Source: Parabacteroides faecis (lineage in GTDB: Bacteria; Bacteroidota; Bacteroidia; Bacteroidales; Tannerellaceae). Taken from it: a stretch of 64,000 bases of DNA. Shown here one piece after another: positions 4,490 to 62,806 of this stretch. Under the pieces are notes generated by a model that was given only the letters and a program-made list of their open reading frames with translations, was not told where the DNA came from and did not search any database. Both the position numbers and the translations under genes were made by a program. Numbering within the stretch: position 1 is the stretch's first letter; every line of letters starts with the position of its first letter. The stretch lies in contig NZ_BMPB01000003.1 of assembly GCF_014647375.1 (NCBI RefSeq), positions 124,001-188,000 of the forward strand, given 5' to 3'.

Positions 4490-4522
4490 GAATATCAGAA
4501 ATGAACTGTACCATTATAAAAG

Positions 4523-4715
4523 AGGCTTAGCTGTTACAGGTTCATTTGCCGTCAGTTTTAACTGACGGTTTGCAGATAGTTTATCTCTTTTGGCTTTAGC
4601 CACATTTCTCTTTAATGGGGATATATTTTAAAATGGGACTAAAGTCCAAAGAAATAGCCATTTACAAATCCGTCAGTTAAAACTGACGGCAAATGAACCT
4701 GTAACAAGCAAGCCT
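4523..4715. repeat. 193-bp inverted-repeat element (MITE/REP-like)
   Basis: Positions 4533-4568 and 4670-4705 are a perfect 36-bp inverted repeat. The arms continue imperfectly outward for about ten more bases on each side (to 4523 and 4715). Each arm contains its own near-palindrome, CCGTCAGTTTTAACTGACGG. The interior carries small dyads (GGCTTTAGCC and GGACTAAAGTCC) and no open frame. This nested structure resembles a non-autonomous mobile or REP-type element. I see no clear target-site duplication, and copy number cannot be judged from one window. Confidence 0.7.
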
Positions 4716-4723
4716 TGCTTGTT
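4703..4723. repeat. 21-bp palindrome at the right edge of the element
   Basis: AACAAGCAAG and CTTGCTTGTT flank a single central base, forming a perfect dyad that overlaps the end of the inverted-repeat element. It could be a weak transcription-stop hairpin after cysK. Confidence 0.6.
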
Positions 4724-4777
4724 ATCTCTTCCCCAACAAATAATAGTCAAATATTAAACTAATATCAAAGAAATTCC

Positions 4778-4785
4778 TATCTTTG
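4778..4785 (+). promoter_or_regulatory. -7 promoter box for the MarR/efflux operon
   Basis: TATCTTTG matches the Bacteroidetes -7 consensus and lies 19 bases before the marR-type ATG, so the 5' leader would be short. Confidence 0.65.
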
Positions 4786-4804
4786 CATCCCAAAAACAGC
4801 AAGT

Positions 4805-5245
4805 ATGACGGATAGTGAATTAGCGCACGAACTTAATTTATTGATATTAAAGACCCGGATGACATTCCGGCAAACGATTCAACGATTACTTAAAAAAAAC
4901 AATGTCGATATGACCTTCGAGATGCTTCAGGTCATGCATTGCCTATGGAAAGAACAGGGTGTCAGCCAACAAACGCTGGCGGAAAAAACGGCGAAGGACA
5001 AGGCATGCCTCACCAACCTGATCAACAACCTGGAGAAAAAAGAATGGGTCGTACGCCGGGAAGACACCAACGACCGGCGTAACAAACTCATATTTCTTAC
5101 ACCGGAAGGAGAAAAAGTGGCTGAAAAGATAAAGTCACTCCTGAAAGATATGTACACACAGATAGGCAACCAAATGAATACCCGCCACATGGAAGCCTGC
5201 ATGAAGCATCTGAATAAATTGAATGAGATATTTGATCAGATATAG
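4805..5245 (+). CDS. MarR-family transcriptional regulator
   Basis: This 146-residue winged-helix protein has the MarR layout: helical dimerisation ends and a central helix-turn-helix (GVSQQTLAEKTAKDKACLTNLINNLEKKEWVVRREDTNDRRNKLIFLTPEG, about 58-110) with the wing motif DRRNK. MarR proteins usually repress adjacent efflux genes and are released by small aromatic ligands. It is the first gene of a four-gene efflux operon, and its end overlaps the next gene by 23 bases, so translation is probably coupled. It most likely autoregulates the operon. The ligand is unknown. Confidence 0.93.
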   Translation: MTDSELAHELNLLILKTRMTFRQTIQRLLKKNNVDMTFEMLQVMHCLWKEQGVSQQTLAEKTAKDKACLTNLINNLEKKEWVVRREDTNDRRNKLIFLTPEGEKVAEKIKSLLKDMYTQIGNQMNTRHMEACMKHLNKLNEIFDQI

Positions 5246-6533
5246 TTTATTAATGTTACTGTTTATTTGTAAGCCTGTTGCGACTTATTCCCAACAGGCT
5301 TACTCGCTTTCTCTCGACGAGTTATTCCGTCTGGGGACAGAGAACAGTTTGCGCCTGCAAGCCTCCCGCATGGAGGAAGTCATCGCGGACGACAAGGAAA
5401 AGACGGCAAAGACCTCACGCCTACCCGGTATCAGTATCGGTGCGACGACCGGATATATCGGACAGTCTACCGTCTTCCGCAAAGGATTGGCGCAGCCCGT
5501 GCATCCCGACCTGCCCGACTGGTCGCACAATTATAATGTAGAGGTGACCCAACCCGTCTACCACGGAGGGAAAATCCATTATAACATCAAGCGGGCTTCC
5601 CTGGAAAAAGAGATTGCCACACTGAACTCGACCAACAGCGAGGCAGAGATCAAACTCCTTTTGTTGCGCCGGTATATGGACCTTTTCAGCCTTTATAAAC
5701 AAAGAGACGTATTCGCCCGCAACGTGGAAGAATCCACACGCCGGCTGGACGATATCCGCAGGTTGAAGAAGGAAGGCGTCGTCACCCGTAACGATGAGTT
5801 GCGCAGCGAACTGCAACTGACCAACGACCAGCTAGCCTGCCGTGAAGCTGACGACGATATTTCCATTGTTTCGCAACAGCTCGACGTCCTGCTCGGACTG
5901 GACGAGTCGTTACTTCTGCAACCCGATACGACACTGCTTTATACAGCTGTTTCGCTGGAAGACTACGAGATATACGTCCTGCAGGCTTACAGCAACTATC
6001 CGGAGTTGCAAATCGCCCGCTATAACACGAAACTGGCGGAAAACGACATTCGCCTGTCGCAAGCAGATTATCTGCCTTCCCTTTCCATCCGGGCCGCCAA
6101 TACACTGTCACGCCCGTTGAGCACTACGATGGAAGATATGTTTTCCAATAACTGGAATATAGCGTTAAGCCTGTCTTACAACCTGTCTTCCCTCTATCAG
6201 AACAAGCATAAAATGCACGAGGCCAAACAATACGTCCACCTCCGGAAAAACAGGGAAGACCAGATACGGCAGGATATCCGTATCAATGTCAGAAGTGCCT
6301 GGATCAGGCATCACGAAGCACTCGACCGTGTACAGGCACTCCTGTTATCGGTCAGGCAGGCCGAAGAGAACTATCGCATCGTGCGGAACCGTTATCTGAA
6401 CCAGTTATCCATCCTGACCGATCTGCTCGATGCCAGCAGTGTCAGGCTCGAAGCCGAACTGCAACTGACGAATGCCCGTACCGAGGCCGTTTACAGCTAC
6501 TACGAACTGATGCGTTCGTGCGGCAATTTATAA
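5223..6533 (+). CDS. TolC-family outer-membrane efflux channel
   Basis: This 436-residue protein starts with a signal peptide (MRYLIRYSLLMLLFICKPVATYSQ) followed by two repeats of the outer-membrane efflux domain, rich in long alpha-helical segments (for example 140-215 and 340-430). TolC proteins trimerise into a channel spanning the outer membrane and periplasm. The chosen ATG lies within the end of the marR gene. A second ATG at 5253 would still leave part of a signal peptide. It precedes the membrane-fusion and inner-membrane subunits, so the three together form a tripartite drug exporter. Confidence 0.93.
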   Translation: MRYLIRYSLLMLLFICKPVATYSQQAYSLSLDELFRLGTENSLRLQASRMEEVIADDKEKTAKTSRLPGISIGATTGYIGQSTVFRKGLAQPVHPDLPDWSHNYNVEVTQPVYHGGKIHYNIKRASLEKEIATLNSTNSEAEIKLLLLRRYMDLFSLYKQRDVFARNVEESTRRLDDIRRLKKEGVVTRNDELRSELQLTNDQLACREADDDISIVSQQLDVLLGLDESLLLQPDTTLLYTAVSLEDYEIYVLQAYSNYPELQIARYNTKLAENDIRLSQADYLPSLSIRAANTLSRPLSTTMEDMFSNNWNIALSLSYNLSSLYQNKHKMHEAKQYVHLRKNREDQIRQDIRINVRSAWIRHHEALDRVQALLLSVRQAEENYRIVRNRYLNQLSILTDLLDASSVRLEAELQLTNARTEAVYSYYELMRSCGNL

Positions 6534-49246: not shown

Positions 49247-52102
49247 CTATCTTTCACGGACACAACGGAATGACATGACGGCGTCGGCACCGTAGGCGTT
49301 GGTACTGCCGTTGTAAAAGCTCACGACTTGGTAGCTGCTCGCAATCTGGAGCGTGCTACTCCAGGTCCAACTGCTCTCGAACTTTTGAAAGCCTGCGGTT
49401 GCCTGTAACGACTGCTTGCTTCTATACATAGTTAACAACTGATCTTGCGATGGCAAATACCAATCAGAATGGCCTTCTGCTGTTAAACCGTTACAATATG
49501 AGTTTGCGTTACTCCAATTTTTTGAACCTCCGTCCGTTTTACATACCTGTAAGTTTCCGACATAAGCACCAATTTCCCCTGATGCCTGTTTAACCGTTAC
49601 CTGTGCTCTTCGTGCTGGATTGGCTCCTGTTACCGATACAGTAAAAGTTCCCTTACGATCAGCACCCGTATTGGCAGATCCCGTAAAGGTTAGCGCGGTA
49701 TTACCTGTTCCTTTGGTAGGACTCACAGTTATGCCATTATTAGTTAACGGAGATATAGTCCATGGTAAACCTGTAGTAGCCTTAACAGAACCTGTTGTAC
49801 TTCCTCCAACCGCCGCTATTTCGGCAACCGGACTGGTAACGCTAAACAAAGAAGCAGCCTGATTCACCGGTACACTCTGGTTCATTGTTCCGGCTGTCAC
49901 TGATATATTTCCTGCATTAACTGTACTGTTTAAATTTAAACTACTTGTTTTATATCCCAAAGTCTGTTCTTCACCGGTTGCGTTTTCCGGAGGTGTTGCC
50001 GTTAGGGTTAACCATTCAGGCTTGGTTATGGATAAAGGAAGTCCCTTAGTTGCCTGAAACGTGAGTGTACCCTTGTCGTCAGCTGTTGCCGCCAATGTGG
50101 TTTTATCACCGGAAGCTGTTAGCGATGAAGCCTTTTGGTTTATCACTATCACACCTGTCGGACCACCCGTTTCGTTACCAGCCCGGACTGTGATCTCACC
50201 GCTTCGCAAGGAGGCTGTCGGATTTACTGTTGCGTCAAAGGTGATATCCTGCACACTTCCGGTCGTTGTGCTACCCGAAGTCGAACCTGTCAGGGTGAGC
50301 CAATCCCCTTGCGTTACTTTCGCTGCCCATGCCAAACCGAGCGTTGCGGTAAAGGAAGATGACTGATTACTGGCTGCTACCGGTTCAAGCTTTACTGTCG
50401 AGCCTTCAACCGTTGAACCAGCCTGTTTGACTATTATTTCTCCTTTCAGGCCCGGATAAGTCGGATCACTAAACGATGCACCTGCCGCAACTGTAATCTT
50501 TCCCGTACGTTCCTGTGCTAGTGGATTGGATGACAATGATTTTACTTTCAACGGAAACTCACTACCGTCGGATTCATTTCCCGAGATAGCCGGATTACTA
50601 TCCGCCCAGCTCCACCAGTCCTCATCGCTCACTGCCGCCTGCCACTGCAAACCTTTGGTCACTTTACAAGTGGAACTACCCTCCGAACCGGATGCCGCGC
50701 CCAAAGAGATATCATCCCCTTTGGTTAGGGTCGAACCCTCCTGCGTAATGGTTATTGTCCAGGGATTGTCGTTTACATTCACAGAAAAGGACACACTTCT
50801 CTCTTCCGCTTTCGGATTGCTCGATACAGCCTGGAAAGTGACCTTCGCCGGACCCTGGTGAGAAACCGTAACACCCGTACCGGCTTCCTTACCCTCTATC
50901 ACAGCCGACAGCCAATCCTCCAGGTCGAACGACCATGCCTGACCCGGACGGGCGGTGATCTGTACCTCCTTCGTTCCTCCTTTTTCAGCAGGCATATTTC
51001 CTTCCGTCACTTCGATAGGCGGTATCCTGCCTACCGTGATACGTTCGTCGGATACATCTATGCCTACCAACGTCACATTCATCGTATAATGCGAGTTACG
51101 CACAATATCATAGTTGTTTTTATCGCTGCCCGGATAAAAACAGAAAGTGACATTCTCGTAAGTCACCCCACTCTGCACGGCAATTCCGGTCAATTCAATA
51201 AAAGTAGCATGGATTACCCCCTTGCCTGTTTTCTTCTTTTCCGAATCGACCGCATCTCCATTTTTTACCGTACCCGCCATATTCTCCGGCAAATACCAGC
51301 ACATCGTGGCTCCGTTCTTATCGGCAGTACCGGCATAACCCGTATACGTCATATTAGCCAACCGGCTTTCCGGGACATCGACCTGCGATTTCTGAGGGAC
51401 GGATTTCAATTCGACAGAAGAAGGAGTAAAAGAAAAATTATTTCCACCTATCGAATAGGTAAACGAGATCTTTGCCAGGAGGCGTGTCAATTCGACCGTG
51501 ATGTTTTTGTCACCCTTTTCCTGTACTACTCCTTCCCACATACCTGTCATTCCGCACAGGTTACTTTCCGGCAAACCACTTTCCGTCGAAGCATACGACA
51601 GGACATGTCCCTTCAATTTCGTTTCATCCCCGATCTCTCCCAGGTCACCGGCATTCGCGATGAACCAGACATGGCTTTGTGCTCCATCCTGACTTTGTTT
51701 CAACTTTATATTCACCGTATTGTCTGTCAAGGAAGCAAAGTATTTATTAAATAGAAGCGTCCCGGTCGAAGCATCATACTGTCCCACCCAAAGCCCGGCA
51801 ATCTTACTTTCCTGCTCTTCATCCAGCGATTGGGTGGCGCGGGTGCCGATACGTTCCCTCTCACCGACGGCCAGTGAATCGGCATCTACCGTCCCTTCGG
51901 GAGTAAACGTTATACTTCGTGTTGTCGGCGCACGGCTCGCCAGGACATTCAAATGAAAACCGGCATCCACATCCTTTAACATATGCGGCGATATATCGCC
52001 ATTTTCCACATCTGCCTGTGTACAGCTACCGACAAAAAGCAAAAATAACCAGGCAGACATACAAATCCAACGTTTATATCTTATTCCACTCATTTGTTTC
52101 AT
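49247..52102 (-). CDS. Large fimbrial tip-like lipoprotein with five BACON repeats and a C-terminal Lcl/DUF1566-like domain
   Basis: This 951-residue protein has a lipoprotein signal with C27 (LFLLFVGSC). The N-terminal third (about 30-370) is fimbrillin-like (Mfa/DUF4906 type). Five BACON-like repeats follow, each ending in a strand such as WTITITQEGS, GEIIVKQAGS, GVIVINQKAS, QSVPVNQAAS or AQVTVKQASG (about 375-840). The C-terminal 105 residues (NLQVCKTDGGSKNWSNANSYCNGL ... WYLPSQDQLLTMY ... SFRCVRE) match the Lcl/DUF1566-type ligand domain. Last gene of the operon, it is a good candidate for the pilus-tip adhesin. BACON domains often bind glycans or mucin. Confidence 0.85.
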   Translation of the reverse strand: MKQMSGIRYKRWICMSAWLFLLFVGSCTQADVENGDISPHMLKDVDAGFHLNVLASRAPTTRSITFTPEGTVDADSLAVGERERIGTRATQSLDEEQESKIAGLWVGQYDASTGTLLFNKYFASLTDNTVNIKLKQSQDGAQSHVWFIANAGDLGEIGDETKLKGHVLSYASTESGLPESNLCGMTGMWEGVVQEKGDKNITVELTRLLAKISFTYSIGGNNFSFTPSSVELKSVPQKSQVDVPESRLANMTYTGYAGTADKNGATMCWYLPENMAGTVKNGDAVDSEKKKTGKGVIHATFIELTGIAVQSGVTYENVTFCFYPGSDKNNYDIVRNSHYTMNVTLVGIDVSDERITVGRIPPIEVTEGNMPAEKGGTKEVQITARPGQAWSFDLEDWLSAVIEGKEAGTGVTVSHQGPAKVTFQAVSSNPKAEERSVSFSVNVNDNPWTITITQEGSTLTKGDDISLGAASGSEGSSTCKVTKGLQWQAAVSDEDWWSWADSNPAISGNESDGSEFPLKVKSLSSNPLAQERTGKITVAAGASFSDPTYPGLKGEIIVKQAGSTVEGSTVKLEPVAASNQSSSFTATLGLAWAAKVTQGDWLTLTGSTSGSTTTGSVQDITFDATVNPTASLRSGEITVRAGNETGGPTGVIVINQKASSLTASGDKTTLAATADDKGTLTFQATKGLPLSITKPEWLTLTATPPENATGEEQTLGYKTSSLNLNSTVNAGNISVTAGTMNQSVPVNQAASLFSVTSPVAEIAAVGGSTTGSVKATTGLPWTISPLTNNGITVSPTKGTGNTALTFTGSANTGADRKGTFTVSVTGANPARRAQVTVKQASGEIGAYVGNLQVCKTDGGSKNWSNANSYCNGLTAEGHSDWYLPSQDQLLTMYRSKQSLQATAGFQKFESSWTWSSTLQIASSYQVVSFYNGSTNAYGADAVMSFRCVRER

Positions 52103-52170
52103 TCTCTCTCTTTTTTATTCCATATCTCATTCTTCTTATTGGCACACCGGCACATTTTCCCATCGGCATA

Positions 52171-53316
52171 TTATGCACCTCTTCCGGCTTCCCCGTTCCC
52201 ACTCCACGTGATCTCTTTCCACCGGGCAACCGTAAATTCCGTTCCAACCCCTTGGTTGATATCCGGATCGGGACAAGGCAGGTCGGGAGCTCCGACATAT
52301 GCATCGGTAAAGGGAACCGCATTCCATGCCAGTACACGTACCTGCAAACGGCTTTCATTATTCTTTACCTCCAACGTAAAAACATACCTTTGGCCTTCGT
52401 CGAAAGATATACTTTTATCGACAGTCGCTTTCAGGGTTGCCGTTTTCTCATCCCGCTGCACATCGATCTCCACATCGAAAGGCTTCGCCGTTTTGGGTAG
52501 AAGCACTCCTTTTGTCTTGTTCAGTCCGCTATTGTCCGGATCGGCACCCGCTTCTACCAGTTCAAACTCACCCGTTTCAAATACGACCTCCCCTGTTTCA
52601 CCGTCAACGCCGTCCGTAGCCGGAATGCCCGTATCCTCTCCGGCTATAAGAACGGCACCGGATGAGGATATTTTACTTAGTTTCAAACGGGTGGCATATA
52701 GCCGGTTAAACGGAAGCATGTTTTCTTTCGACGGAGCGACATTGAACACCACCAGAGCACATTTACGACGGAAAGTTCCCAACTTTACCTGCCGGGAACT
52801 TTCAGAAACCGTTACGCCGCGCACAAACGAGGTCATCATGTCTTCTTTGTGGGGAATATCCGTTATCTGATAAGAATCACCACTCCCTTTCTGCAACGGC
52901 CGTGCCGGAGAAACGGCATAAAAGTCATATATGCCGCTACGGACAACCGTCTTTTCCGCTTCTCCGGCAACCTTTTTCCCCACATCATCCACCCGACAAG
53001 GCGACAGGCTGCCATCGGCCAGCACTTCATAAGTGAATTCAAAGGTGGAAGCCGCCGCAGAAAAAGCTGCCGGCGTGGTCTGTTCTCCCACATTTCCCAG
53101 CAAATAGCCACGGATGCGTATGGTAGCTCCTTCCGGCAATGGCGTAGGCTCCGGCGTAACAGCTTCATCCGACCGTGTCAGGACCACTGGGATACCCAAG
53201 TCGGGCTTCCCGAAACTGACTGCCACCAGCTGCGCCGTTTCCGGCATCTCTTCCACAGGACCGGAGGTACAACCAGTGAGCATTCCCCCCAACAGACATA
53301 TCAAATATCGTTTCAT
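52171..53316 (-). CDS. Fimbrillin-family lipoprotein
   Basis: This 381-residue protein has the lipobox MLTGC. The mature region contains a fimbrillin (Mfa-like) beta-sandwich pattern, with RSGIYDFYAVSPARPL, CALVVFNVAPSKENMLPFNRLYATRLKLSKIS and the closing QRYVFTLEVKNNESRLQVRVLAWN. In type V pili such lipoproteins are trimmed by a protease and then polymerise by strand exchange. It sits 12 bases before the next upstream coding region and is probably an accessory or minor subunit. Confidence 0.83.
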   Translation of the reverse strand: MKRYLICLLGGMLTGCTSGPVEEMPETAQLVAVSFGKPDLGIPVVLTRSDEAVTPEPTPLPEGATIRIRGYLLGNVGEQTTPAAFSAAASTFEFTYEVLADGSLSPCRVDDVGKKVAGEAEKTVVRSGIYDFYAVSPARPLQKGSGDSYQITDIPHKEDMMTSFVRGVTVSESSRQVKLGTFRRKCALVVFNVAPSKENMLPFNRLYATRLKLSKISSSGAVLIAGEDTGIPATDGVDGETGEVVFETGEFELVEAGADPDNSGLNKTKGVLLPKTAKPFDVEIDVQRDEKTATLKATVDKSISFDEGQRYVFTLEVKNNESRLQVRVLAWNAVPFTDAYVGAPDLPCPDPDINQGVGTEFTVARWKEITWSGNGEAGRGA

Positions 53317-53328
53317 ATCATACAGTTT

Positions 53329-54444
53329 TTATTCTACCGGAATATCATGCGCCCCGCCATCATTCCAACCGGCAACCCGGATATCCGCCAGTTCGATTCC
53401 CTGCGGCTGCAGGCGGATATTGTAGATATAATTGTATCCCTTTTTCCAGTCCGCTGTAAACGTTCCGGGAGCTTTCCCGTTTCCTTCTGCCGGTTTCATA
53501 TTGAACGTACGCCCGTCTTCGAGCGTAAGCACCAGCGTGACACCCACATCCGTCACCGGAATGACCAGGCCGAATGCCTGTATCGCGACTTTGGAGGCAT
53601 CGGCTTCACCGGAACCCACTCCGCGCAGATCGCCGTCCGCTGTAAACACCAGTTCACCGGCATCTGTCATGGTTCCCTCCAGAACACCTGTCGAAAGGTT
53701 CAGTCTGGCGGAAGTGGATTTTTTCAGGCCCACATCACTTTTCAACGTCACCCGGGCTACCCGGCAGCCAGAAAAGGCCGTTCCTCCCTCTGCTTCCAAT
53801 ACACGGAAACTCACCTTTGCCAGTGCATGCTGCATCAAAAGCGATACCTCCGGATGCCAGCGGTCTACCTGGTCCGCCGCCATACAGTAGAGGTAATCGT
53901 CCTGGTCAGTTTCCCACTGTACATCGGTCGCGGCATCCACCTGCTTGCCGCCGTCGTTGAAAGAAAACTTCTGCTTATCCAGCACCCTGACACCGCTCAT
54001 CGACGGTACTTTAGGGGTTCCCGAAAGCGACACGCTTTTCCCGGACGGCGCATAGGCATAAACAGTCCCTTTTTCCGTATACAGGCAAAGCGGTTCTTCT
54101 CCTTCCGCCAACTCCCAGGCAGGCAGTGGTATTGCCTCGTTATAGGTGAACAGCTGACTTTTGACACTGCTCACGTAGAAACTGACTGCACCGCTACCGT
54201 TCTGTTTGGTGACGCATATACCGACAGAAGCAAGCGGGTTCGGATTCTTTTCCTCCTCCCCCGGACCACCCGTAACGACGCTTCGTGATTCCACTTCCAA
54301 TGACAAGCCCAGGTTCCTGATGCTCAAAGGAACACCCTTTTCTGTATCTTCGCCACCGGGTACAGGCAAAGCGATCTCCGCTTCCGTGCACGCCATGCAC
54401 AGCGACAGGAGCACTGCCGGTAATAGGTATAAGAACTTTTTCAT
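53329..54444 (-). CDS. Fimbrillin-family lipoprotein
   Basis: This 371-residue protein has the lipobox LSLCMAC. It has the same general pattern as the 54471-55781 gene: GTVYAYAPSG, a central DDYLYCMAAD, MQHALAKVSFRVLEAEGG and the closing WKKGYNYIYNIRLQPQGIELADIRVAGWNDG. These strands are typical of Mfa1/FimA-like subunits. The operon therefore holds several structural subunits. Longer opposite-strand frames here are shadows. Confidence 0.86.
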   Translation of the reverse strand: MKKFLYLLPAVLLSLCMACTEAEIALPVPGGEDTEKGVPLSIRNLGLSLEVESRSVVTGGPGEEEKNPNPLASVGICVTKQNGSGAVSFYVSSVKSQLFTYNEAIPLPAWELAEGEEPLCLYTEKGTVYAYAPSGKSVSLSGTPKVPSMSGVRVLDKQKFSFNDGGKQVDAATDVQWETDQDDYLYCMAADQVDRWHPEVSLLMQHALAKVSFRVLEAEGGTAFSGCRVARVTLKSDVGLKKSTSARLNLSTGVLEGTMTDAGELVFTADGDLRGVGSGEADASKVAIQAFGLVIPVTDVGVTLVLTLEDGRTFNMKPAEGNGKAPGTFTADWKKGYNYIYNIRLQPQGIELADIRVAGWNDGGAHDIPVE

Positions 54445-54470
54445 GGGCTTTATTTTTAGTCGTTGTTTAA

Positions 54471-55781
54471 TTACAACGGGATTTCCACCTGATCGACATC
54501 ATTCCATTTTTCTACCGTTACGTCCATTATCGTCAACTTGTTACGACCTGCCGAGAATGTGTAGATGTAATTGTCGCCAGCCGACCAATTGTTTGCAGGA
54601 AGAGTGACCTGATAGACAACTACCGGATTTTCTCCCTCCTGCAACGTGATTTCCACATCTATTTCGTTGTCATCGAAACTTTCTATCGGGTATACCAGGG
54701 CGCTGACCGTTTTAGACACGGTCTGGCCATTCACTGAGGAAGAAGTCTTGCCGTTTTGGACAAAAGCATGTTCACCTTCTTTTCCTCCTTCCTCTACCTG
54801 TCTCATCAATATATAACCAGTAATCGTACGAGTCATACCGGTCGTGGTTGAAGGTCCGGTTATTGCCCCGTCCGTCAACGACATATATCCTTCTCCTGTC
54901 TTAAACAGACTTGAACCGTCGGTATGGTTCTTTATTTTGAACGTCGTAAACTTCACGTCTTTATCACTCAGATGCCCACCGTCATACACACGGAAAGAGA
55001 CCATCGCCATAGCATGCTTCATATTCAGGTTGATCTTATAACCGGGATTCTTGTCATTTGTATTATCAGGATCGGCTTCCGGAGTAACAGGTGTTTGTCC
55101 TTCGGCACGTCCGTTATTGACATAACGGCCGCTCTCCGTTGCGTCAAAATAGAGGTAATCATTCTCAGTCGACAAAGACAGATTTACTGGAGTGCCTTTA
55201 CTCGATGGTTGTGACCATTTATTCACATCCCAATATTTCCTTGCATTGTTAGTAGAAGCATCTATCTCACCGGTAGTGAGGACCTTTACCTGGATTTTCA
55301 GGTTGGATTCGCTACTGATGGAAGAAATCCCAAGATCTTCATTATAAGGATAATAAGCATACACCTTTCCTACCGTTTTAGTCAGATAATAAGGGACTTC
55401 GTTTTTCTGGTCATAAGAACTTTTTTTGTCTGTGATTGAAATCCAGTTGGCTCCATTTCCATCCCCTATATACCTCACATGATGTCCGGTATAGCCGGAA
55501 CCTGTCTCATCGGGTTTATACCAACCTGTCGAGGTACTATTCGTGACCAATACACCCAAACCAGGGGCAGAGTTGTAATCGGTATAGGTAATCTTTTCAC
55601 CACTTACTACCGATTTAGTAGCCGCTTTGGTTCCAGCATCCACTTTCAGATTGGGAGTGATACCCAAAGCTACCTGACCGCCACTTCCCGGTTCAGGGTC
55701 GATTTCGGTTTCTGTTTCCGAACAGCTTGTCGCTGTCAGAAGGGCTATCAACATAACCCACATTGTCTTAGTTGTTTTCAT
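54471..55781 (-). CDS. Fimbrillin-family lipoprotein, candidate major subunit
   Basis: This 436-residue protein starts at the ATG at 55781, giving MKTTKTMWVMLIALLTATSC; the longer frame overlaps the upstream gene and lacks a signal start. Mature features are VGKVYAYYPYNEDLG, NDYLYFDATESGRYVN, KHAMAMVSFRVYDGG and the C-terminal WSAGDNYIYTFSAGRNKLTIMDVTVEKWNDVDQ, the classic fimbrillin end. It is the longest of the single-domain fimbrillins here and lies mid-operon, so it may be the main shaft subunit. That is inference. Confidence 0.87.
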   Translation of the reverse strand: MKTTKTMWVMLIALLTATSCSETETEIDPEPGSGGQVALGITPNLKVDAGTKAATKSVVSGEKITYTDYNSAPGLGVLVTNSTSTGWYKPDETGSGYTGHHVRYIGDGNGANWISITDKKSSYDQKNEVPYYLTKTVGKVYAYYPYNEDLGISSISSESNLKIQVKVLTTGEIDASTNNARKYWDVNKWSQPSSKGTPVNLSLSTENDYLYFDATESGRYVNNGRAEGQTPVTPEADPDNTNDKNPGYKINLNMKHAMAMVSFRVYDGGHLSDKDVKFTTFKIKNHTDGSSLFKTGEGYMSLTDGAITGPSTTTGMTRTITGYILMRQVEEGGKEGEHAFVQNGKTSSSVNGQTVSKTVSALVYPIESFDDNEIDVEITLQEGENPVVVYQVTLPANNWSAGDNYIYTFSAGRNKLTIMDVTVEKWNDVDQVEIPL

Positions 55782-55815
55782 TTCCGTTCGTTTTAAAGTG
55801 TTTCTATGTAATATT

Positions 55816-56790
55816 TTATATCGGCATATCATCCTGTTCATGATCCGTCCAGGCTTCCACACCGACAGATATAGTCTGTATCTGGCTTTTATCTGTAAAG
55901 AAGAGGGTTACAACATGGCTTTTTCCTATCTGAAAACCACCTTCTATATAGAAAGAAACTTCCGAGACTGTTTCATGTTCGGTTCCCCTACCATCTTTCG
56001 TCGTTGTTATCCAAAGATGCAACGGGTGTTTTGCTGTTCCGTCCACTGGGGAAACCGGGAGCAAGAGATATCCTTGCGATTCGGGAAGATCTTCGCTGGC
56101 TGTTACCTCCGGGACCGGCAAGTTTGTTATATCCTGTACCGGGATATTTTTTATTCCATCATCTGACGATATATCATCCAAATAGGGAGTCTCCTGTTCC
56201 AGATCCAGTTCCTGACGTGTATGTACGTCCACTGCATCGATCGTTTTTATCGTTCCCCATCCATCGGATCGGTCACTGTAACAAACCAAACGAACCTGTG
56301 TCAGTAAATGATGGAACGTACAGGTTTGTATCGGGGCATACTCGCTGCCCGTTAGGATTCCTGTTGACATAATATCAGTTGTACCATCTACTATAAAGGT
56401 TACTTTGCCCGTTCCTGCAACGGCTTCCGACTCACCCTTTGCCGGATAATAGCCGTGTAGGCGGATATGACGAGCATCCTCCGGGTATGACTGGGACTGG
56501 GCAAACACGATCGGACGGTTCCCCTTCCCGCCTGTTCGCACCGCCTCATATCTGTTCCACATGCCATAACTTTCTGTCGAAACGGCCGTTTCATCCTGAC
56601 GGGCAAAGTAAACCTCTAAATCCTTTTCATAGCCGGAACCGATTGCTCCACGCGTTGATTGTCCGATCGCCCCTTCCAGGCAGACCGCTGTTTCCGGAAC
56701 CGGCTCCGGAGTAGGATTGCTGTCTGAACAGGCGGCGAGGCCCGGAAGGATGACGATGGATATTGATATTATTGCTATGAAGTTGTTCAT
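55816..56790 (-). CDS. Fimbrillin-like lipoprotein (paralogue of the next gene)
   Basis: This 324-residue protein has the lipobox LAAC. It shares clear blocks with the protein at 56856-57806: STRGAIGSGYEKDLEVYFARQD, VRTGGKGNRPIVFAQ, HGYYPAKG, TDIMSTGILTG and FHHLLTQVRLVC. The pair arose by tandem duplication. Its C-terminus, GKSHVVTLFFTDKSQIQTISVGVEAWTDHEQ, is the fimbrillin end strand. It probably forms a minor or variant pilus subunit. Confidence 0.83.
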   Translation of the reverse strand: MNNFIAIISISIVILPGLAACSDSNPTPEPVPETAVCLEGAIGQSTRGAIGSGYEKDLEVYFARQDETAVSTESYGMWNRYEAVRTGGKGNRPIVFAQSQSYPEDARHIRLHGYYPAKGESEAVAGTGKVTFIVDGTTDIMSTGILTGSEYAPIQTCTFHHLLTQVRLVCYSDRSDGWGTIKTIDAVDVHTRQELDLEQETPYLDDISSDDGIKNIPVQDITNLPVPEVTASEDLPESQGYLLLPVSPVDGTAKHPLHLWITTTKDGRGTEHETVSEVSFYIEGGFQIGKSHVVTLFFTDKSQIQTISVGVEAWTDHEQDDMPI

Positions 56791-56855
56791 GATTTTGATA
56801 GTTGTCTTGTTTTTTTAATTTACACCCTCCTGCCCCCTCTCGAAGAGGGGAAAGG

Positions 56856-57806
56856 TTACTCGCCGGGGATAATGATAGTACTACCGTTATTACCCGGTTG
56901 CCACTCGGTGATACCGGTTTCCACTGCTATTTTGCCGTCCTCCGTAAAGGTGAGCGTGATAAGGTGGGAATAGCCCGCTTTCACGCCTTCACTGATATTG
57001 GAGACGGTTACGTTCAATGTTTTGGGATTTCCGTCATAAGTTCCTTTCACTTCTAAACTGACAGGCAAATCTTCTGTTCCCATATTCGCTGTCGGGTAAA
57101 GCAACAGATAGCCGGTCGATGTTTTTTCGGCATCCAAAGCCGCAACTGTAGAAGGGCAGTTTTTAACCGTTAGCGTTTGGTCGGCTGTTCCTGGTGCTGT
57201 CAGTTTTGCCCCAGTTGTTTTATCAAGCGATAGTTTCAATCCCGTTGTTACATTCTTTACTTTAATGGAAGTTATAGCCGTCCATTTTGTGATCGCTCCG
57301 GCAGAACCCGTACATTTGAACTGCAATTGGGTCAATAGATGATTGAAGGTAAAAGTCTCGAACTTATCCACCAGCGAACCGATCTGGACTCCTGTTGCCA
57401 TTATATCCTCCTCTCCGGTAATGGTGTATGCGACACTGACCGGGTTGGCGGTTCCACTATTCAACGCCTTGCGGGGATAGTAACCGATCAGAATCGATTC
57501 GCCATCTTCCGTCAGATAGGTTTGTTCAGGTTCAAACGTTAGAACCGTGTTGCCTGTACCACCTGTGCGAACCGCATCGATAGACGGGGTATTCCATTGA
57601 ACACCCGTTGTTCCGGGATTATCCAGACGGGCGAACGAGACTTCCAGGTCATTCGCATAACCGCTGCCAATCACAGCACGGGTAGACTCCGCGATCCCGG
57701 CACTCACTTCTACTGTTCCATCCGTCACCGGTTCTTCCATATTCGTGCAACTGCCTAAGAAAGCAACCACTAACAGACTCATGATCAATAATTTTCCTAT
57801 TTTCAT
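56856..57806 (-). CDS. Fimbrillin-like lipoprotein (tandem paralogue)
   Basis: This 316-residue protein has the lipoprotein signal MKIGKLLIMSLLVVAFLGSC. Blocks shared with the 55816-56790 protein are STRAVIGSGYANDLEVSFARLD, VRTGGTGNTVLTFE, EDIMATGVQIG and FNHLLTQLQFKC. Its C-terminal region GYSHLITLTFTEDGKIAVETGITEWQPG is the usual closing segment. The two copies differ most in their middle and surface-like loops, suggesting divergence of exposed parts. Confidence 0.84.
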   Translation of the reverse strand: MKIGKLLIMSLLVVAFLGSCTNMEEPVTDGTVEVSAGIAESTRAVIGSGYANDLEVSFARLDNPGTTGVQWNTPSIDAVRTGGTGNTVLTFEPEQTYLTEDGESILIGYYPRKALNSGTANPVSVAYTITGEEDIMATGVQIGSLVDKFETFTFNHLLTQLQFKCTGSAGAITKWTAITSIKVKNVTTGLKLSLDKTTGAKLTAPGTADQTLTVKNCPSTVAALDAEKTSTGYLLLYPTANMGTEDLPVSLEVKGTYDGNPKTLNVTVSNISEGVKAGYSHLITLTFTEDGKIAVETGITEWQPGNNGSTIIIPGE

Positions 57807-57855
57807 ATTATACCAGTGTTTTTATTGTTACTATTGTTCTCATTTTCATTCCGTT

Positions 57856-58818
57856 TCAGGGAGTTACCACACCCGAACCGCCACTGCCCGGTTTCCAGTC
57901 CGTCAGCGTGATCGTCAAACCGCTTATTTCATCATAGCGGACAACCAGATCCAGTATCACATGTGTTGTGACAGTTGCGGTGAACGCATCTTTCACATCT
58001 TTCGTTATATCCGTCAATGAAGTGATTTCCTTTCCATCCGCCAATGTCATCGTAAGGGAAAGGTCGACGGGTTCGTCACTTCCCTCCTCCTCCTCACCCG
58101 GGGATAAACCGAACAGGCTCAGTGAAGAAGCATACACGTCCGGACTGACCTCTTCCGGCTCGAACGTCATAAAAACAGGCGTATCGAACAGCGGCTTGCC
58201 GGAAGGGATATGAACCCGTGACGATACACCGGTCAACCTTCCCGACAAGACCGCAGGAACGATATCATCCTTATCCCCTCCTGTGACCTTTATATTCATT
58301 TCCAATGTACGAACAAGGTTTGCCGGAGTTAATTCCTTTGCTACCGTTTCACCTCCGACTACCTCGATCTGCTCCAGACCTGTACCGTACAAGCTCCCCG
58401 GGCAGGCTATCTGCACGGAGCTTGATTTTAACGAAGAGAGTTGTTGTGCCCTGCCGCAGGCTTCCTCATACCCCTTCTCCATTTCAAGCGTGACACCCGT
58501 ACAACTGGTATTACAGACTGCTACCCGGTAACGTCCCAAAGGCAACGTGCCCTCATATCCTGAAACGTCACCCGTACGCATGAACGGACTTTCCGAATCT
58601 TCCGGGTAGAAATACCAAATCATATTATCCGGGCAACCACTGTTTGACCTTCGAAGCAGCAAACGTACCTTTCCGTTCTTCTCCCAATCCTCATCAGGAC
58701 TGTGATAGGCGCAAGATGAAATCGCCATAATCCATACGGTACTGATCGCCCAAACGACAACCTGCATCATCCTATATCCCTTATATCTTATCTCTCTCTT
58801 ATTTTTATATCTTTCCAT
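57856..58818 (-). CDS. DUF5119-like fimbrial lipoprotein
   Basis: This 320-residue protein has the signal VVVWAISTVWIMAISSC. The mature protein starts with acidic and basic residues and contains VRLLLRR, IWYFYPED, LPLGRYRVAVCNTSCTGVTLE and a long beta-rich C-terminal half ending HVILDLVVRYDEISGLTITLTDWKPGSGG. This layout matches DUF5119 proteins, which accompany DUF3575 genes in Bacteroidales pilus loci and are probably anchor-type components. The ATG at 58818 is preceded by GGGAGGTG, a good ribosome-binding site. A GTG at 58836 overlaps the upstream stop codon and is the alternative. Confidence 0.75.
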   Translation of the reverse strand: MERYKNKREIRYKGYRMMQVVVWAISTVWIMAISSCAYHSPDEDWEKNGKVRLLLRRSNSGCPDNMIWYFYPEDSESPFMRTGDVSGYEGTLPLGRYRVAVCNTSCTGVTLEMEKGYEEACGRAQQLSSLKSSSVQIACPGSLYGTGLEQIEVVGGETVAKELTPANLVRTLEMNIKVTGGDKDDIVPAVLSGRLTGVSSRVHIPSGKPLFDTPVFMTFEPEEVSPDVYASSLSLFGLSPGEEEEGSDEPVDLSLTMTLADGKEITSLTDITKDVKDAFTATVTTHVILDLVVRYDEISGLTITLTDWKPGSGGSGVVTP

Positions 58819-58832
58819 ATCCTCACCTCCCT

Positions 58833-60260
58833 TCACCTGATTTGAAAACGATAGGATAAACTGACCTTTAAACCAACCATAAAACCCGTAGAAGCAAAAC
58901 TCGTTTCCAGATAATTACGGTTATCCAGCGAATCATACCGATATTTCTTCCCACTGAAAACACTTCGATAACCGGCACGGACACGCATATCTACTCCCAA
59001 ACCACCGACCAGAGAAAAGCGATAACCCATCGACAGACCTGCCGACCAAAAACAACCTGTCCGTCCGTAAAGCATATCTTCCGACAGGTCGATCGCGCTT
59101 CCACGTATATCGAAATCACCGTATTCGGTAAACAAGCCGGTATTCAATCCGGTAAACTTCCCCGAAGAGGATAGCCAGATAGTAGGTTCGAGGGAGATTT
59201 CGGACACAGCCCAACAGTCGCGCGTCTTGTCTTTATAGGCAAAGTCGGAATACATGCCCAACAAGGCTACCGACCAACGACCGGCGAAACTACACTCCAC
59301 TTCCAGGTTCGGCATGAATGCCCCCGTTTCTATCTTCGTTTCACCGGTTCCTAAACGAATCGACGGGGCTACGCCACACCAGGGAAGAAGGTTCGTTTTC
59401 ACCCCCAGATATACTGAGCTTTGCTGCACCGGAGCTTCTTCCATCCTCACTGGTTTGGTTGACTGTTTTTGTTCCTCGGGAACAACTTCTTTTCCGACTG
59501 TTTTTCTCTGTTTTGTCACCACCCGCACTGTTTCCCTGGTTGTTACGGTGGTGGCTAAAGCGATGTCCGGCTCTTCTATCCGTTTACTATGGCGTACCGT
59601 ATCCGTTACGGAAGCCAGACGGTAATCTTCCAGTTCCGTTCGGTCGAAAAGAGGATCGTCAATACGGTACACTTCACGGTCGTAACCTCCTGTCTCACCA
59701 CGACGGTACAGGTCTACATAAGGGACTGCCCCATATTCACCCATGGCAGCCTCTACCGCTACCGGATAACGGCTTTCACTGTAATGAATCGAAATGTTCG
59801 CAAACCACGGAAGTGGTTTATAAACCTTATAGACATGTACCTGGTCGCGATAGTTTCCGCTACGGTCGATATAAAAAGCTACACAATCATGGGGAATATC
59901 GAAACGGGTTTTCAGGTAGGCGTGGATACGACCCGCACGCAATGAGGCTTCGTTCACCACCTCTGTATCTTCGTATTCATATGCACTCACATGCGATACG
60001 ATCAACAAATGGCAATCACCTTTCAGGATTTGGTCACGGGACACGTCGAGTAAATCGCCCATCCGTTCCAATTGATAAGCGTTGTCTCCGTAGTCGGCAA
60101 GGAACAGGTCGTTATCCCGGCGGAAAGAGAATAGGAACGATTCAGCCTTGTAATAGGTCGTAGTCTGGGCATCCGTTTCCATCCTCAAAAGGAAGCAAAG
60201 CAGCAACAGGAAGATTGTTCTTACCTGTATTTTCCGGTGTGGACCTTTTATCCTATACAT
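58833..60260 (-). CDS. OmpA-like plus DUF3575 outer-membrane protein, first gene of the pilus operon
   Basis: This 475-residue protein has a signal segment (TIFLLLLCFLLRMETDAQ). An OmpA-like half follows (about 85-150, VVNEASLRAGRIHAYLKTRFDIP), then a Lys/Glu/Thr-rich linker (about 225-285) and a DUF3575 beta-barrel with VYLGVKTNLLPWCGVAPSIRLGTGETKIETGAF at its start and a final VSLSYRFQIR. Such proteins begin many type V-pilus-like operons and may anchor or assemble the fibre. The start at 60260 is the first ATG; an upstream TTG frame was not used. The invertible promoter region lies 72 bases upstream. Confidence 0.85.
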   Translation of the reverse strand: MYRIKGPHRKIQVRTIFLLLLCFLLRMETDAQTTTYYKAESFLFSFRRDNDLFLADYGDNAYQLERMGDLLDVSRDQILKGDCHLLIVSHVSAYEYEDTEVVNEASLRAGRIHAYLKTRFDIPHDCVAFYIDRSGNYRDQVHVYKVYKPLPWFANISIHYSESRYPVAVEAAMGEYGAVPYVDLYRRGETGGYDREVYRIDDPLFDRTELEDYRLASVTDTVRHSKRIEEPDIALATTVTTRETVRVVTKQRKTVGKEVVPEEQKQSTKPVRMEEAPVQQSSVYLGVKTNLLPWCGVAPSIRLGTGETKIETGAFMPNLEVECSFAGRWSVALLGMYSDFAYKDKTRDCWAVSEISLEPTIWLSSSGKFTGLNTGLFTEYGDFDIRGSAIDLSEDMLYGRTGCFWSAGLSMGYRFSLVGGLGVDMRVRAGYRSVFSGKKYRYDSLDNRNYLETSFASTGFMVGLKVSLSYRFQIR

Positions 60261-60280
60261 ATTAATATATAATACCAGTT

Positions 60281-60296
60281 TGTTCAATATTGAACA
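60281..60296. promoter_or_regulatory. 16-bp perfect palindrome in the pilus operon leader
   Basis: TGTTCAATATTGAACA lies 20 bases upstream of the first pilus gene's ATG and outside the invertible segment. It would be in the leader of any pilus transcript, as an operator or a hairpin. Confidence 0.6.
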
Positions 60297-60332
60297 GTGA
60301 CTATGATTATCACTAACTCTCTGTAAATGTTC

Positions 60333-60353
60333 ACCTTATTTATATAATAAGGG
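60333..60353. repeat. Left 21-bp inverted repeat of the invertible segment
   Basis: This repeat is the exact reverse complement of 60730-60750. Its 19-base core, CCTTATTTATATAATAAGG, is a dyad of 7-bp arms (CCTTATT / AATAAGG) around TATAT. That is the layout of a tyrosine-recombinase crossover site. Confidence 0.9.
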
Positions 60354-60624
60354 TAGAGGGTGAAAAAAGCCCTTTCCCGAAGAACCTCCTTTGGGAGTTT
60401 TTAGGGTAAAAAATGAAGGATTGATGTCTTTTTGAGTCTTTTTGGAGGAAGAAACGGTACTGCGGAAATAACAGTTTTCTCTTAACAGATTAAAAAACGA
60501 TGGCAGTCCGGGCCTGTTTTATACCATCTTGTAATGAAATTCATATTATATGGCTAAAAAATAGGTTAACTTGTGAAATTTAGTAAAATTGATATGCCTT
60601 TTTTAAGAAAACACCCTACACTCC

Positions 60625-60655
60625 TTGTTTTTTCATTTTTTTATTCTTACGTTTG
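60625..60655 (+). promoter_or_regulatory. Invertible promoter, currently pointing away from the pilus operon
   Basis: TTG (60625-60627), a 20-base spacer and TACGTTTG (60648-60655) match the full Bacteroidetes -33/-7 consensus. I found no TAnnTTTG on the minus strand anywhere in the segment. In this state the transcript would run into the recombinase gene in antisense. After inversion it would start near 60422 and give a leader of about 160 bases to the pilus ATG. Confidence 0.8.
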
Positions 60656-60729
60656 CCACGTACTTCATTACAATTCAGTTTTTTTCTTATTTATAAGACA
60701 CTGATTGTAAGACAGAAAGAGGATGTTTC

Positions 60730-60750
60730 CCCTTATTATATAAATAAGGT
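60730..60750. repeat. Right 21-bp inverted repeat of the invertible segment
   Basis: This is the exact reverse complement of the left repeat at 60333-60353. It directly abuts the stop codon of the recombinase gene (60751-60753 on the minus strand), leaving no spacer. Confidence 0.9.
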
Positions 60751-61668
60751 TTATCCCACCCGCAAACAGCTGCCGATCGCTTCGGAAACCTGCCGGTTTG
60801 CTTTGGCTATTTCCGATACGTCAAACTTCTGTAAATAGAGACGGGTCGTTTTTTCCGATGTATGCCCCAGTGCCTGGCTGATCACGCCGATAGCGACATG
60901 CAGGCGGTACGCCTCCGAAGCCCAGGCATGACGGAACGAATAGGTCGTCAATGTTTCCGGCAAATCCAGCATCACACTGATCTCTTTCAAGTAACGGTTT
61001 TCTGTTGCCAGACAGGCTTTATACTGTTCGTGGGTCATATCTTCCGACAGCACCGGGAAAAGGTAACGCCTCTCTTCATTTTTATACCGGTCGATCAGCA
61101 TCTGTATTCCCGAAGTCACTTCCATCTGGATAAATGCCCCGGTCTTCTGCCGGTGGTATTGCAATACCGTACCGTTCTCCACCAAATTCTCACCTGTCAG
61201 ATGCACGATATCCACAAAAGGAATACCGCAAGCCATAAACGAAAACAATGCCAAATCAATAGCAAGCTGCTTCTCCGGTTCACTCTTCAAATCCAGAGCG
61301 GCTATTTCCTTTATCACTTCCACCGGCACAGCACGTTTACGCGTCTCCTCCCTCTTCAAGTGAATCCCCGCAAAAGGTGACTCTCCCATTTTCTCCCTAC
61401 ACACCCGACGGGCTCGGTTATACATCGCACGCAAATTGCTCATGTAACTGTTCACCGTATTCACACGCAGTCCTTTTTCACGCAACCATTTCAAAAACGC
61501 CTCAACCAAAGCCGGTGTCACATCTTTCAGGCACAAGTCCTTACCACCCGAGAAACATATAAAATGATTACGCACCGCCCGATACAGGTCAGCCGTACTT
61601 TCATCGCCGCAGGAACGTTTATCCTCTTCCTGCAACAACATCTGTCCATAAAAATCTCTTTTCTTCAT
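60751..61668 (-). CDS. Tyrosine recombinase, probable invertase of the pilus switch
   Basis: This 305-residue protein has a helical core-binding N-terminal domain (about 22-105), then a catalytic domain with QKTG (the beta-hairpin Lys), R246 in YSFRHAWASEA, H269 in LGHTSEKTT and nucleophile Y278. The first catalytic Arg is not obvious: where many Bacteroides integrases have R-G-M-x-F-V-D, this one has A-C147-G-I-P-F-V-D. Its gene ends exactly at the right inverted repeat and its 305-residue size matches invertases of phase-variable loci. Local pairing makes it the likely enzyme for the switch. A near-consensus -7 box (TATCTTTT on the minus strand, 61707-61700) lies upstream. Confidence 0.92.
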   Translation of the reverse strand: MKKRDFYGQMLLQEEDKRSCGDESTADLYRAVRNHFICFSGGKDLCLKDVTPALVEAFLKWLREKGLRVNTVNSYMSNLRAMYNRARRVCREKMGESPFAGIHLKREETRKRAVPVEVIKEIAALDLKSEPEKQLAIDLALFSFMACGIPFVDIVHLTGENLVENGTVLQYHRQKTGAFIQMEVTSGIQMLIDRYKNEERRYLFPVLSEDMTHEQYKACLATENRYLKEISVMLDLPETLTTYSFRHAWASEAYRLHVAIGVISQALGHTSEKTTRLYLQKFDVSEIAKANRQVSEAIGSCLRVG

Positions 61669-61803
61669 AACTTTTCCTCCATTTTATTCGGATTAATCAA
61701 AAAGATAAAGATAAACATTCATAGCTTTCAGAATGTTCGATTTTTACCGATCAGGCTAACAGTCGTTTTCACTCAAACAGCTGTTCCGGAAGAAAAACCC
61801 GCC

Positions 61804-61947
61804 TTATCACTCTGTTTTCCTCCCTTCATCACCCCTCCTTTCGGAAATCATTGCAATGAATCTTCCCTATCATCACAATGTCCCGACAGAGTCATCACAA
61901 TGACTTCACGTACTTATCACAATGAAGTGGGACAATCATTGTGATGA
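61804..61947. repeat. Seven palindromic iterons at exactly 22-bp pitch upstream of the recombinase
   Basis: Units start at 61804, 61826, 61848, 61870, 61892, 61914 and 61936. The consensus is TYATCACAATGA, a 12-bp dyad. Units 3, 5 and 7 are TCATTGCAATGA, TCATCACAATGA and TCATTGTGATGA, the last being unit 5 inverted. Units 1 and 2 keep only the left half (TTATCAC, TCATCAC). The 10-bp spacers are unrelated. Because 22 is not a multiple of 3 and the spacers differ, this is not a protein repeat or CRISPR. A related copy (TCATTATGATGA) lies at 62108-62119, out of phase. Confidence 0.88.
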
Positions 61948-62158
61948 AAATTTTAACACTACAAAATATGGGGAGATTTGCTTCGGGATTATGCTCTTAA
62001 ACAGGGCTGATACGGCTTTCTGATAGCTGGAAGCTCTTTCTGAACGATTCATTTTCATTTGACAAATAATAGTAGGTTCCGCCTTTTCCCTGTCACTAAC
62101 TCCGAAATCATTATGATGATTACATTTTCCCCTCTTAAATGTTTCCGCTAAAAAGAAA
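61948..62158. other. Intergenic stretch without a recognisable gene
   Basis: About 210 bp between the iteron array and a terminator. Apart from a single iteron-like palindrome at 62108-62119 I see nothing definable in it. Confidence 0.5.
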
Positions 62159-62278: not shown

Positions 62279-62526
62279 TTACTTATCCAATATTTCTTGA
62301 ATCTGCTTTTTTAAAGGTAAAAGTTCTTGCAATGAGAATCACGAAATTCTTTCGTTAATAAATATGCTGCTTCACCAATTATTTCAAGATTCTTAATTAC
62401 AGCAAAGCGAAGGATTTTATTTTGCTTATAAGATTCAAAATCTACGCCTTGTGTAAACTCTACTATATTATCGATAGCCTCAATTATATGAAGTAACCGA
62501 CTTTCATCTTTAGGCTTTTCTCTCAT
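62279..62526 (-). pseudogene. hepT: HepT toxin remnant with internal deletion and frameshift
   Basis: The first frame encodes 71 residues typical of a HepT N-terminal region (LLHIIEAIDNIVEFTQGVDFESY, FAVIKNLEIIGEAAYLLTKEF). At about position 62330 the reading jumps frame, and the other frame supplies a typical HepT C-terminal end, LQELLPLKKQIQEILDK, to a stop at 62279. The middle, including the catalytic R-x4-H-x-Y block present in the intact copy at 41978-42382, is missing. The loss is about 40 codons plus a frame change. The toxin should be inactive, while its antitoxin upstream is intact. Confidence 0.85.
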
Positions 62527-62806
62527 AGATCAACAGTTTATCTAGGTTAGCACTCTCTTTAGCAAAATCTTTTAGTTGCCCTTCTTCCACAAGGTCTACT
62601 TTCTTTTTCAGTAGTTTTTGAAGTGCATCGACCATTCCTGCATATTTAAAAAGAGTAATATTAGCATCCGGTAAAAATTGAACCAAAATATCAATATCAC
62701 TCTTCTTCGATTCCTCCCCTCTGGAATAAGAACCGAACACCCATGCCCTTTGAACAGGTTGCATAGAGAAAAATGAGGACAGTTTATTTAAAATTGAAAC
62801 CTTCAT
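62510..62806 (-). CDS. mntA: MntA-family nucleotidyltransferase antitoxin (intact copy with dead partner)
   Basis: This 98-residue nucleotidyltransferase has WVFGSYSRGEESKKSDIDILVQF (G-S ... D-x-D). The overlap with the hepT remnant is 17 bases, as in the first module. A clear promoter lies upstream. With the toxin broken it may be under relaxed selection, or it could protect against other HepT toxins. Confidence 0.9.
   Translation of the reverse strand: MKVSILNKLSSFFSMQPVQRAWVFGSYSRGEESKKSDIDILVQFLPDANITLFKYAGMVDALQKLLKKKVDLVEEGQLKDFAKESANLDKLLIYERKA

Follow-up and report, generated by a model that had tools for sequence, protein, structure and literature searches.

A probable invertible-promoter switch for a pilus operon in Parabacteroides faecis, apparently OFF as sequenced

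In E. coli, the fimbrial promoter lies on an invertible element, fimS, which is flipped by the tyrosine recombinases FimB and FimE. The locus described here would work like fimS, with an invertible promoter for fimbriae and a tyrosine recombinase. Unlike fimS, it serves an unrelated pilus type, has unrelated repeats and has a single recombinase gene, located across the segment from the operon.

Other similar systems have been described. In the Bacteroidales, invertible promoters before fimbrillin genes (PMC11892184) and tyrosine-recombinase switches for surface genes (PMC12632263, PMC8748976) are in print, and read data have revealed inversion sites in P. distasonis (PMC5903667). The B. fragilis Tsr invertible promoters include a phase-variable outer-surface locus later tied to fimbriae (Weinacht 2004, cited in PMC12632263). 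They share with the present locus the pairing of a tyrosine recombinase with an invertible promoter, a surface-protein operon with a fimbria-related product, and ON/OFF control by orientation. They differ in that the recombinase subfamily found here occurs only in Parabacteroides among the genomes searched and serves several paralogous pilus operons per genome. A further likeness is to B. fragilis Tsr19/BF2766 with IVp-I and IVp-II, where a local switch is mostly OFF in culture and one enzyme serves a distant site (PMC4747536); some relatives of our locus likewise have extra tandem repeats. That system differs in controlling EPS and an outer-membrane protein cluster, and in the present case each pilus-type switch has its own recombinase.

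The hCom2 inverton groups 137, 112 and 122 also have an invertible promoter upstream of fimbrillin genes (PMC11892184); they are likened here by description rather than by repeat identity, and Parabacteroides is absent from the main text of that study. In Parabacteroides itself, the S-layer glycoproteins and capsule loci of P. distasonis are phase-variable (Fletcher 2007, cited in PMC8400631), again with a tyrosine recombinase and an invertible promoter before surface genes. The P. distasonis capsule repeat, GCTACTYRGNRAGTAGC (PMC12118408), differs from the dyad found here, CCTTATT-N5-AATAAGG, and the target here is a pilus operon. In the open-licence PMC literature, so far as its accessible parts go, we found no description of this dyad or of these Parabacteroides pilus switches.

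In this context, the locus adds a new and well-supported case to a known switch type, the Bacteroidales invertible promoters. In all likelihood it is a site-specific DNA-inversion (phase-variation) switch for a pilus operon, worked by the adjacent recombinase and OFF as sequenced.

Layout of the locus

The genome examined (G000) comprises 6.66 Mb in 33 contigs. The window is the whole stretch of DNA analysed, 64,000 nucleotides (contig C3:124001-188000), and the positions below are those of the window.

49247..52102, minus strand: g8, BACON repeats and Lcl_C, probable tip or adhesin subunit
52171..53316, minus strand: g7, Mfa_like_2 (domain match)
53329..54444, minus strand: g6, Mfa_like_1 (domain match)
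54471..55862, minus strand: g5, Mfa_like_1 (domain match)
55816..56790, minus strand: g4, Mfa_like_1, 0.2 bit under the curated cutoff
56856..57806, minus strand: g3, Mfa_like_1 fimbrillin-like protein (domain match)
57856..58836, minus strand: g2, DUF5119 (domain match)
58833..60260, minus strand: g1, DUF3575 protein, opening the pilus operon, with its start placed at the ATG near 60260
60333..60353, plus strand: left inverted repeat, putative recombinase site, with dyad CCTTATT-TATAT-AATAAGG at 60334-60352
60354..60729, no strand: putative invertible segment, 376 bp inside the arms
60370..60406, minus strand (reading to the pilus operon): hairpin and T-run, possible insulating terminator, clear in the nearest relatives only
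60625..60655, plus strand: Bacteroidales-type promoter motif, -33 cTTG and -7 TACGTTTG, aimed at the recombinase gene and away from the pilus operon (OFF)
60730..60750, minus strand: right inverted repeat, the left-arm dyad and spacer inverted, adjoining the recombinase stop codon
60751..61668, minus strand: tyrosine site-specific recombinase, likely invertase, Phage_int_SAM_5 and Phage_integrase

An earlier note on this DNA had described perfect 21-bp inverted repeats, each with a recombinase-like dyad core, around a gene-free segment between a pilus operon and a tyrosine recombinase gene. This description holds in full. The arms are 21 bp each and 100% complementary, with 376 nt between them, and both carry CCTTATT-5 bp-AATAAGG; no ORF of at least 80 aa overlaps the segment; and ORFs and domains bear out the placement. 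As in Bacteroidales invertons, short inverted repeats thus surround an intergenic segment. The dyad halves are plausibly recombinase half-sites around a 5-bp spacer. Arms included, the element is 418 bp long, and the corresponding span across 17 pilus-type switches (defined below) is 411-421 bp. The longest closed ORF within the segment has 43 aa (ATG, GTG or TTG starts) or 36 aa (ATG only), and a small conserved gene was rejected as an explanation of the segment since the ATGGCA ORF is not retained across loci.

A chance inverted repeat is ruled out by resampling and by the expectation for the dyad. When the whole window was resampled with a second-order Markov model, none of 10 runs yielded a perfect inverted repeat of at least 15 bp (60-1000 bp apart), and resamples of the local AT-rich stretch gave one in 2 of 2000. 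The dyad CTTATT-N5-AATAAG has two sites in the window, both at these arms (0.00 expected). One other place in the window has perfect arms of at least 19 bp: an 85-nt inverted repeat at 4523-4715, 80% complementary, with perfect 37-bp arms at 4532-4568 and 4670-4706.

The recombinase (305 aa; PF13102, PF00589) is identified as a tyrosine recombinase by its Phage_integrase domain (PF00589, 34 bits vs a cutoff of 27.1) and by an LGH...Y motif with the nucleophilic Tyr conserved in the alignment. The gene runs in the direction of the segment, its stop codon lying directly against the right arm; no TAnnTTTG was found within 432 bp upstream as a candidate promoter. The canonical RKHRH residues are incomplete, in that alignment to integrase 5c6k shows Pro in place of the first Arg and, in the RHR box, Tyr in place of the first His. 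Upstream of the recombinase, at 62510-62806, a small ORF has a nucleotidyltransferase-like GSYSRGEESKKSDIDIL motif (seen by eye) and may be one half of a HEPN/MNT pair.

On the other side of the segment, fimbrillin-family subunits lie in one cluster, as in type V pilus (FimA/Mfa) loci, one of the five fimbrillin-like genes being just under its cutoff. Judged by its domains, the cluster is a fimbrillin-like pilus operon of eight genes, from 60260 to 49247. The most likely start of g1 is the ATG near 60260 (the ORF caller's is a TTG at 60287). A search by sequence found no solved homologues for the subunits g3 and g6.

Comparative evidence for inversion

Recombinases matching at E 1e-90 or better occur in 7 of 124 genomes of the taxonomic family, all of one genus, at 20 loci. 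A DUF3575 pilus gene lies beside the segment at 17 of these (three in G000, five in G038, four each in G013 and G009, one in G022), which we call pilus-type; L052 and L053 have no adjoining DUF3575 pilus gene, and L057 stops at a contig edge. The 17 loci, in five genomes, share the order recombinase, repeat, segment, repeat, DUF3575 gene. No close relatives of the recombinase were found beyond the genus, either at E 1e-90 (124 family genomes) or at E 1e-70 in 393 evenly drawn genomes of the order, where matches fell in G000 and G001 only. More distant recombinases were collected from 18 genomes of the genus at E 1e-40, matches without a locus lying outside the analysed set. Sixteen further loci (L026-L029, L084-L088, L094-L100), with recombinases 24-39% identical, have no dyad (0/16), and they were left out of the co-variation and orientation counts below. 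In these comparisons, the dyad tracks the recombinase subfamily. The exact 19-bp site was not found in viral contigs (0 matches).

Genome-wide, a dyad scan of G000 gave 13 sites. Ten form five pairs, each beside a recombinase of the family (C1, C3, C7, C11, C23), and three are single. Three of the five paired switches (C3, C7, C11) precede paralogous pilus operons. The C23 switch precedes genes for an HTH regulator, DUF3575, DUF3868 and Fimbrillin_C, and the C1 switch is followed by an HU-like DNA-binding/DUF4469 gene and by a gene for a 1155-aa protein without a Pfam match.

Variants of the arrangement were also seen. At L071 (G038:C8:1544500-1559500), the same switch type is followed by an operon in which g5 is succeeded by four genes weakly like g6, with no g7- or g8-like gene in the fetched stretch. 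Tandem extra dyads occur at L102 (7317-7880, oriented; two per side, 30 bp apart) and at L052, L075 and L090 (two on the left); extra repeats are associated with lower transcription at B. fragilis IVp-I (PMC4747536). At L074 (1047-1488, oriented), a recombinase of the family accompanies a variant dyad, CCTTAATTCTGATTTAAGG, perfect in both arms, so site and enzyme may co-evolve. At L047 (G000:C2:230000-245000, 4160-6492), a recombinase 39% identical lies with a different perfect repeat, GTCTCTTGGTAAGAGACGGAAC, 22 bp long at 5409 and 5861; an ORF weakly similar to the DUF3575 gene follows it, which would make this another kind of switch, placed in front of a possible fimbrial locus.

The spacer between the half-sites provides a first line of evidence for recombination. 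We took 37 loci, 35 of which have at least two dyads near the recombinase (L074 has none of the strict form and L093 a single site near a contig edge), and compared the outermost pair where there were more than two. Since the search pattern dictates the half-sites, the 5-bp spacer is what this test examines. In 34 of 35 loci the two arms carry the same spacer, inverted, and 11 different spacers occur. At the remaining locus, L057, which lies at a contig edge, two dyads stand in tandem on one side and form no true pair, so that all 34 genuine pairs agree (34/34). When the 35 rows were re-paired at random (10,000 trials), 6.7 were identical on average and 18 at most, figures that are no probability because related loci are not independent. 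Identity from arm to arm together with variety between loci is a mark of strand exchange by a tyrosine recombinase.

Opposite orientations provide a second. Segment interiors were compared for all pairs of 34 loci, with the cut set at the maximum of a reversed uncomplemented control (37) plus 4. Of the pairs above it, 129 share an orientation and 3 are opposed. Among the 17 pilus-type loci the counts are 127 same and none opposite; among the other 17, 2 same and 3 opposite (L078/L079, L080/L081, L082/L091). For L080/L081, longer stretches (L101/L102) align plus/plus at 92-94% in the flanks and plus/minus at 82% in the segment, with breakpoints at the dyads. For L091/L082 (L103/L104), the flanks match at 85-88%, the left one over only 172 bp (contig end), and the segment plus/minus at 83%. 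For L078/L079, flanks are 78-81% and the segment plus/minus 83% identical; their spacers differ (TATAA, TATGA), each being identical in its own two arms. In all three of these orthologous pairs the flanks are collinear and the breakpoints fall at the dyads. The L101 switch precedes a DUF3575-DUF3868-Fimbrillin_C-Mfa2 operon, with its motif pointing away (OFF), and the motif of its sister L102 points at the operon (ON). Recombinases at these flips are 43-47% identical to the window recombinase.

By comparison, then, inversion by the recombinase family is shown, and inversion at the window locus is what we infer. The earlier note had proposed that the segment inverts and that sister genomes be checked for flipped copies. 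Invertibility is supported by the spacer co-variation (34/34), by purifying selection on the recombinase and by three inversions seen between sister genomes at homologous switches, of which one lies before a fimbrial operon; no flipped copy was found at any of the 17 pilus-type loci themselves.

That zero invites another reading, in which the pilus-type switches no longer invert and their operons are silent or under another promoter. The missing canonical catalytic Arg would also fit such a frozen relic. However, spacers still match between arms while diverging between loci. The pilus-type recombinase has dN/dS of 0.02-0.16 (five comparisons), that is, it is under purifying selection by this measure, and so are g1, g2, g4 and g7, the four pilus genes tested. 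Both catalytic substitutions are common to the aligned family, including recombinases beside flipped switches, which weakens the case for an enzyme inactive for want of the Arg. The first catalytic Arg is absent in the IntCTnDOT subgroup (CTnDOT-type integrases), and His is replaced by Tyr in the IntDes subgroup (PMC8138268); because of these records, the missing Arg alone is no argument for inactivity. We consider a frozen switch very improbable. The pilus-type recombinase at L050 has one in-frame stop (two ORFs in the MAG record L043), and the arms there are still perfect.

Promoter direction and the OFF bias

The inverton promoter pattern (-33 TTTG, -7 TAnnTTTG) is found inside the segment, where inversion would turn it to face the operon. 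At 60625-60655 the sequence is cTTG-N20-TAcgTTTG, with a perfect -7 and a -33 matching 3 of 4 bases (CTTG vs TTTG). On its own the motif is near chance in the window (3 found vs 0.97 expected); it carries weight because the strict -33/-7 motif sits at one position, aimed at the recombinase, in 16 of the 17 pilus-type switches (the exception is L058). On the pilus (minus) strand, no TAnnTTTG was found in segment or leader, which disposes of this kind of alternative pilus-ward promoter. L050 and L060 have a pilus-strand TAnnTTTG, without TTG at -33. Two promoter-like matches of the E. coli type lie in the leader on the pilus strand; over 60200-62000 such matches number 2, vs 3.4 expected from shuffles. 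The earlier note had reported one full -33/-7 promoter pointing away from the pili, no minus-strand TAnnTTTG in the segment, and an OFF state. The promoter's direction and the missing minus-strand motif are borne out, and the OFF state is supported by that conserved direction and by the lack of a pilus-ward TAnnTTTG in segment and leader; only the word 'full' was slightly generous, given CTTG at -33.

The hairpin at 60370..60406 was considered as a conserved terminator insulating the operon. It is present in the nearest relatives, and because it is not kept across all 17 pilus-type loci we do not claim it. A separate pattern scan, itself at chance level, did not list it.

The switch would operate as follows. 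The adjacent tyrosine recombinase would bind both CCTTATT-N5-AATAAGG dyads, recombine them via the identical 5-bp spacers and so invert the 418-bp element; that it inverts the DNA between its sites is suggested by adjacency and site co-variation. In the sequenced orientation, the only conserved promoter would fire at the recombinase gene, antisense to it, and the eight-gene operon would be left without a recognisable promoter. Because the only conserved promoter faces the recombinase gene and none is recognisable for the operon, the pili are probably switched off. After inversion, the promoter would read via the left repeat and a leader of ~72 nt into the operon (ON). The window recombinase as the actor, the flipping of this copy and its control of transcription are all inferences from the DNA.

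All 17 pilus-type segments have one orientation by homology to the window segment (0/17 flipped; L052 and L053, which are not pilus-type, were undecided in this comparison), a count drawn from five genomes with pilus-type loci, one genome per species. Such uniformity suggests a strong OFF bias, though culture selection would be another source and a locked state is possible. It counts against free switching of the pilus-type subfamily.

A refinement of the inversion reading, which we think somewhat unlikely, is that pilus-type switches are invertible but held OFF, either by antisense transcription lowering the recombinase or by an enzyme that strongly prefers switching from ON to OFF, as the E. 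coli FimE enzyme does. All 17 pilus-type switches lie in the OFF orientation, vs 3 of 5 homologous pairs of other switches in opposite orientations. The recombinase gene ends right at the repeat, and no plus-strand terminator beyond the promoter was listed by the pattern scan of 60200-62000; OFF-state antisense transcription through the recombinase gene might thus lower the recombinase. In B. fragilis, the local promoter IVp-I is a precedent for such OFF dominance, both in broth and in six of seven faecal samples (PMC4747536). However, distant switches with the same antisense layout were found flipped, so antisense alone cannot explain the contrast. Culture conditions that select against costly pili would give an identical picture, and the count comes from five genomes only, with related loci within them.

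Paralogous switches and cassette movement

The segment is present in three copies in the genome (C3, C7, C11), the other two being 94% and 96% identical to the window copy, with the same arrangement and orientation. This raises the question of whether the switches act alone. The recombinase might act in trans on switches with its spacer, so that the three pilus operons are flipped by a common enzyme pool. Three loci in one genome have identical 21-bp arms, and their segments are 94-96% identical though the C7 recombinase is 77% identical. In B. fragilis, Tsr19 acts on a distant promoter as well as a local one, inverting both (PMC4747536), and in Phocaeicola vulgatus a promoter beside a defective recombinase still inverts, which the authors credit to another recombinase (PMC13114119). 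On the other hand, each locus of the genome keeps its own recombinase under purifying selection. We regard such a network as a real possibility, if short of probable.

The divergence of the copies is uneven. Of the genes tested for dS (recombinase, g1, g2, g4, g7; g3, g5, g6 and g8 were left out), the recombinase and g7 give 0.98 and 1.65 between C3 and C7, against 0.127 and 0.057 between C7 and its G038 ortholog (8 and 29 times). For g1, g2 and g4 the values are 0.29, 0.40 and 0.22 between C3 and C7 and 0.26, 0.17 and 0.11 between C7 and G038, a factor of 1.1 to 2.3. The segment is 94% identical in both comparisons. Compared with L065 and L066, the stretch 52171-60750 shows segment, leader and proximal genes far more alike between paralogs than the C7 recombinase and distal genes. 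Because identity fades gradually into the recombinase gene, the pattern is best explained by ordinary gene conversion around the switch; an exchange of cassettes bounded by the repeats was set aside on the same gradual decay.

Operon and switch also appear to move between chromosomal addresses. The G038 locus at 190 kb (L067, G038:C8:186500-205000) is syntenic on both flanks with the window locus (49247-61668). Its g1-g5 and g7 match the G000 C11 operon (L065) at 93-99% identity vs 68-92% for C3, g6 (82 vs 68%) and g8 (68 vs 64%) being less clear. In L067, g6 is split into two ORFs.

Taken together, these points would allow the switches to be interchangeable: sites and promoters homogenised, recombinases acting across loci and silenced by antisense transcription, giving a self-stabilising all-OFF state, rare cells with one pilus type, and cassettes moving between addresses. 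We hold this combination to be unlikely. For the inversion switch itself, a specific repeat dyad, recombinase subfamily and promoter are now assigned to a set of Parabacteroides pilus operons, and ON cells are therefore countable by PCR or read mapping. Because all 17 pilus-type switches lie in the OFF orientation in the assemblies searched, such pili could be missed in routine culture. Finally, setting uniformly OFF pilus-type switches against their flipped relatives makes the cause of the orientation bias testable.
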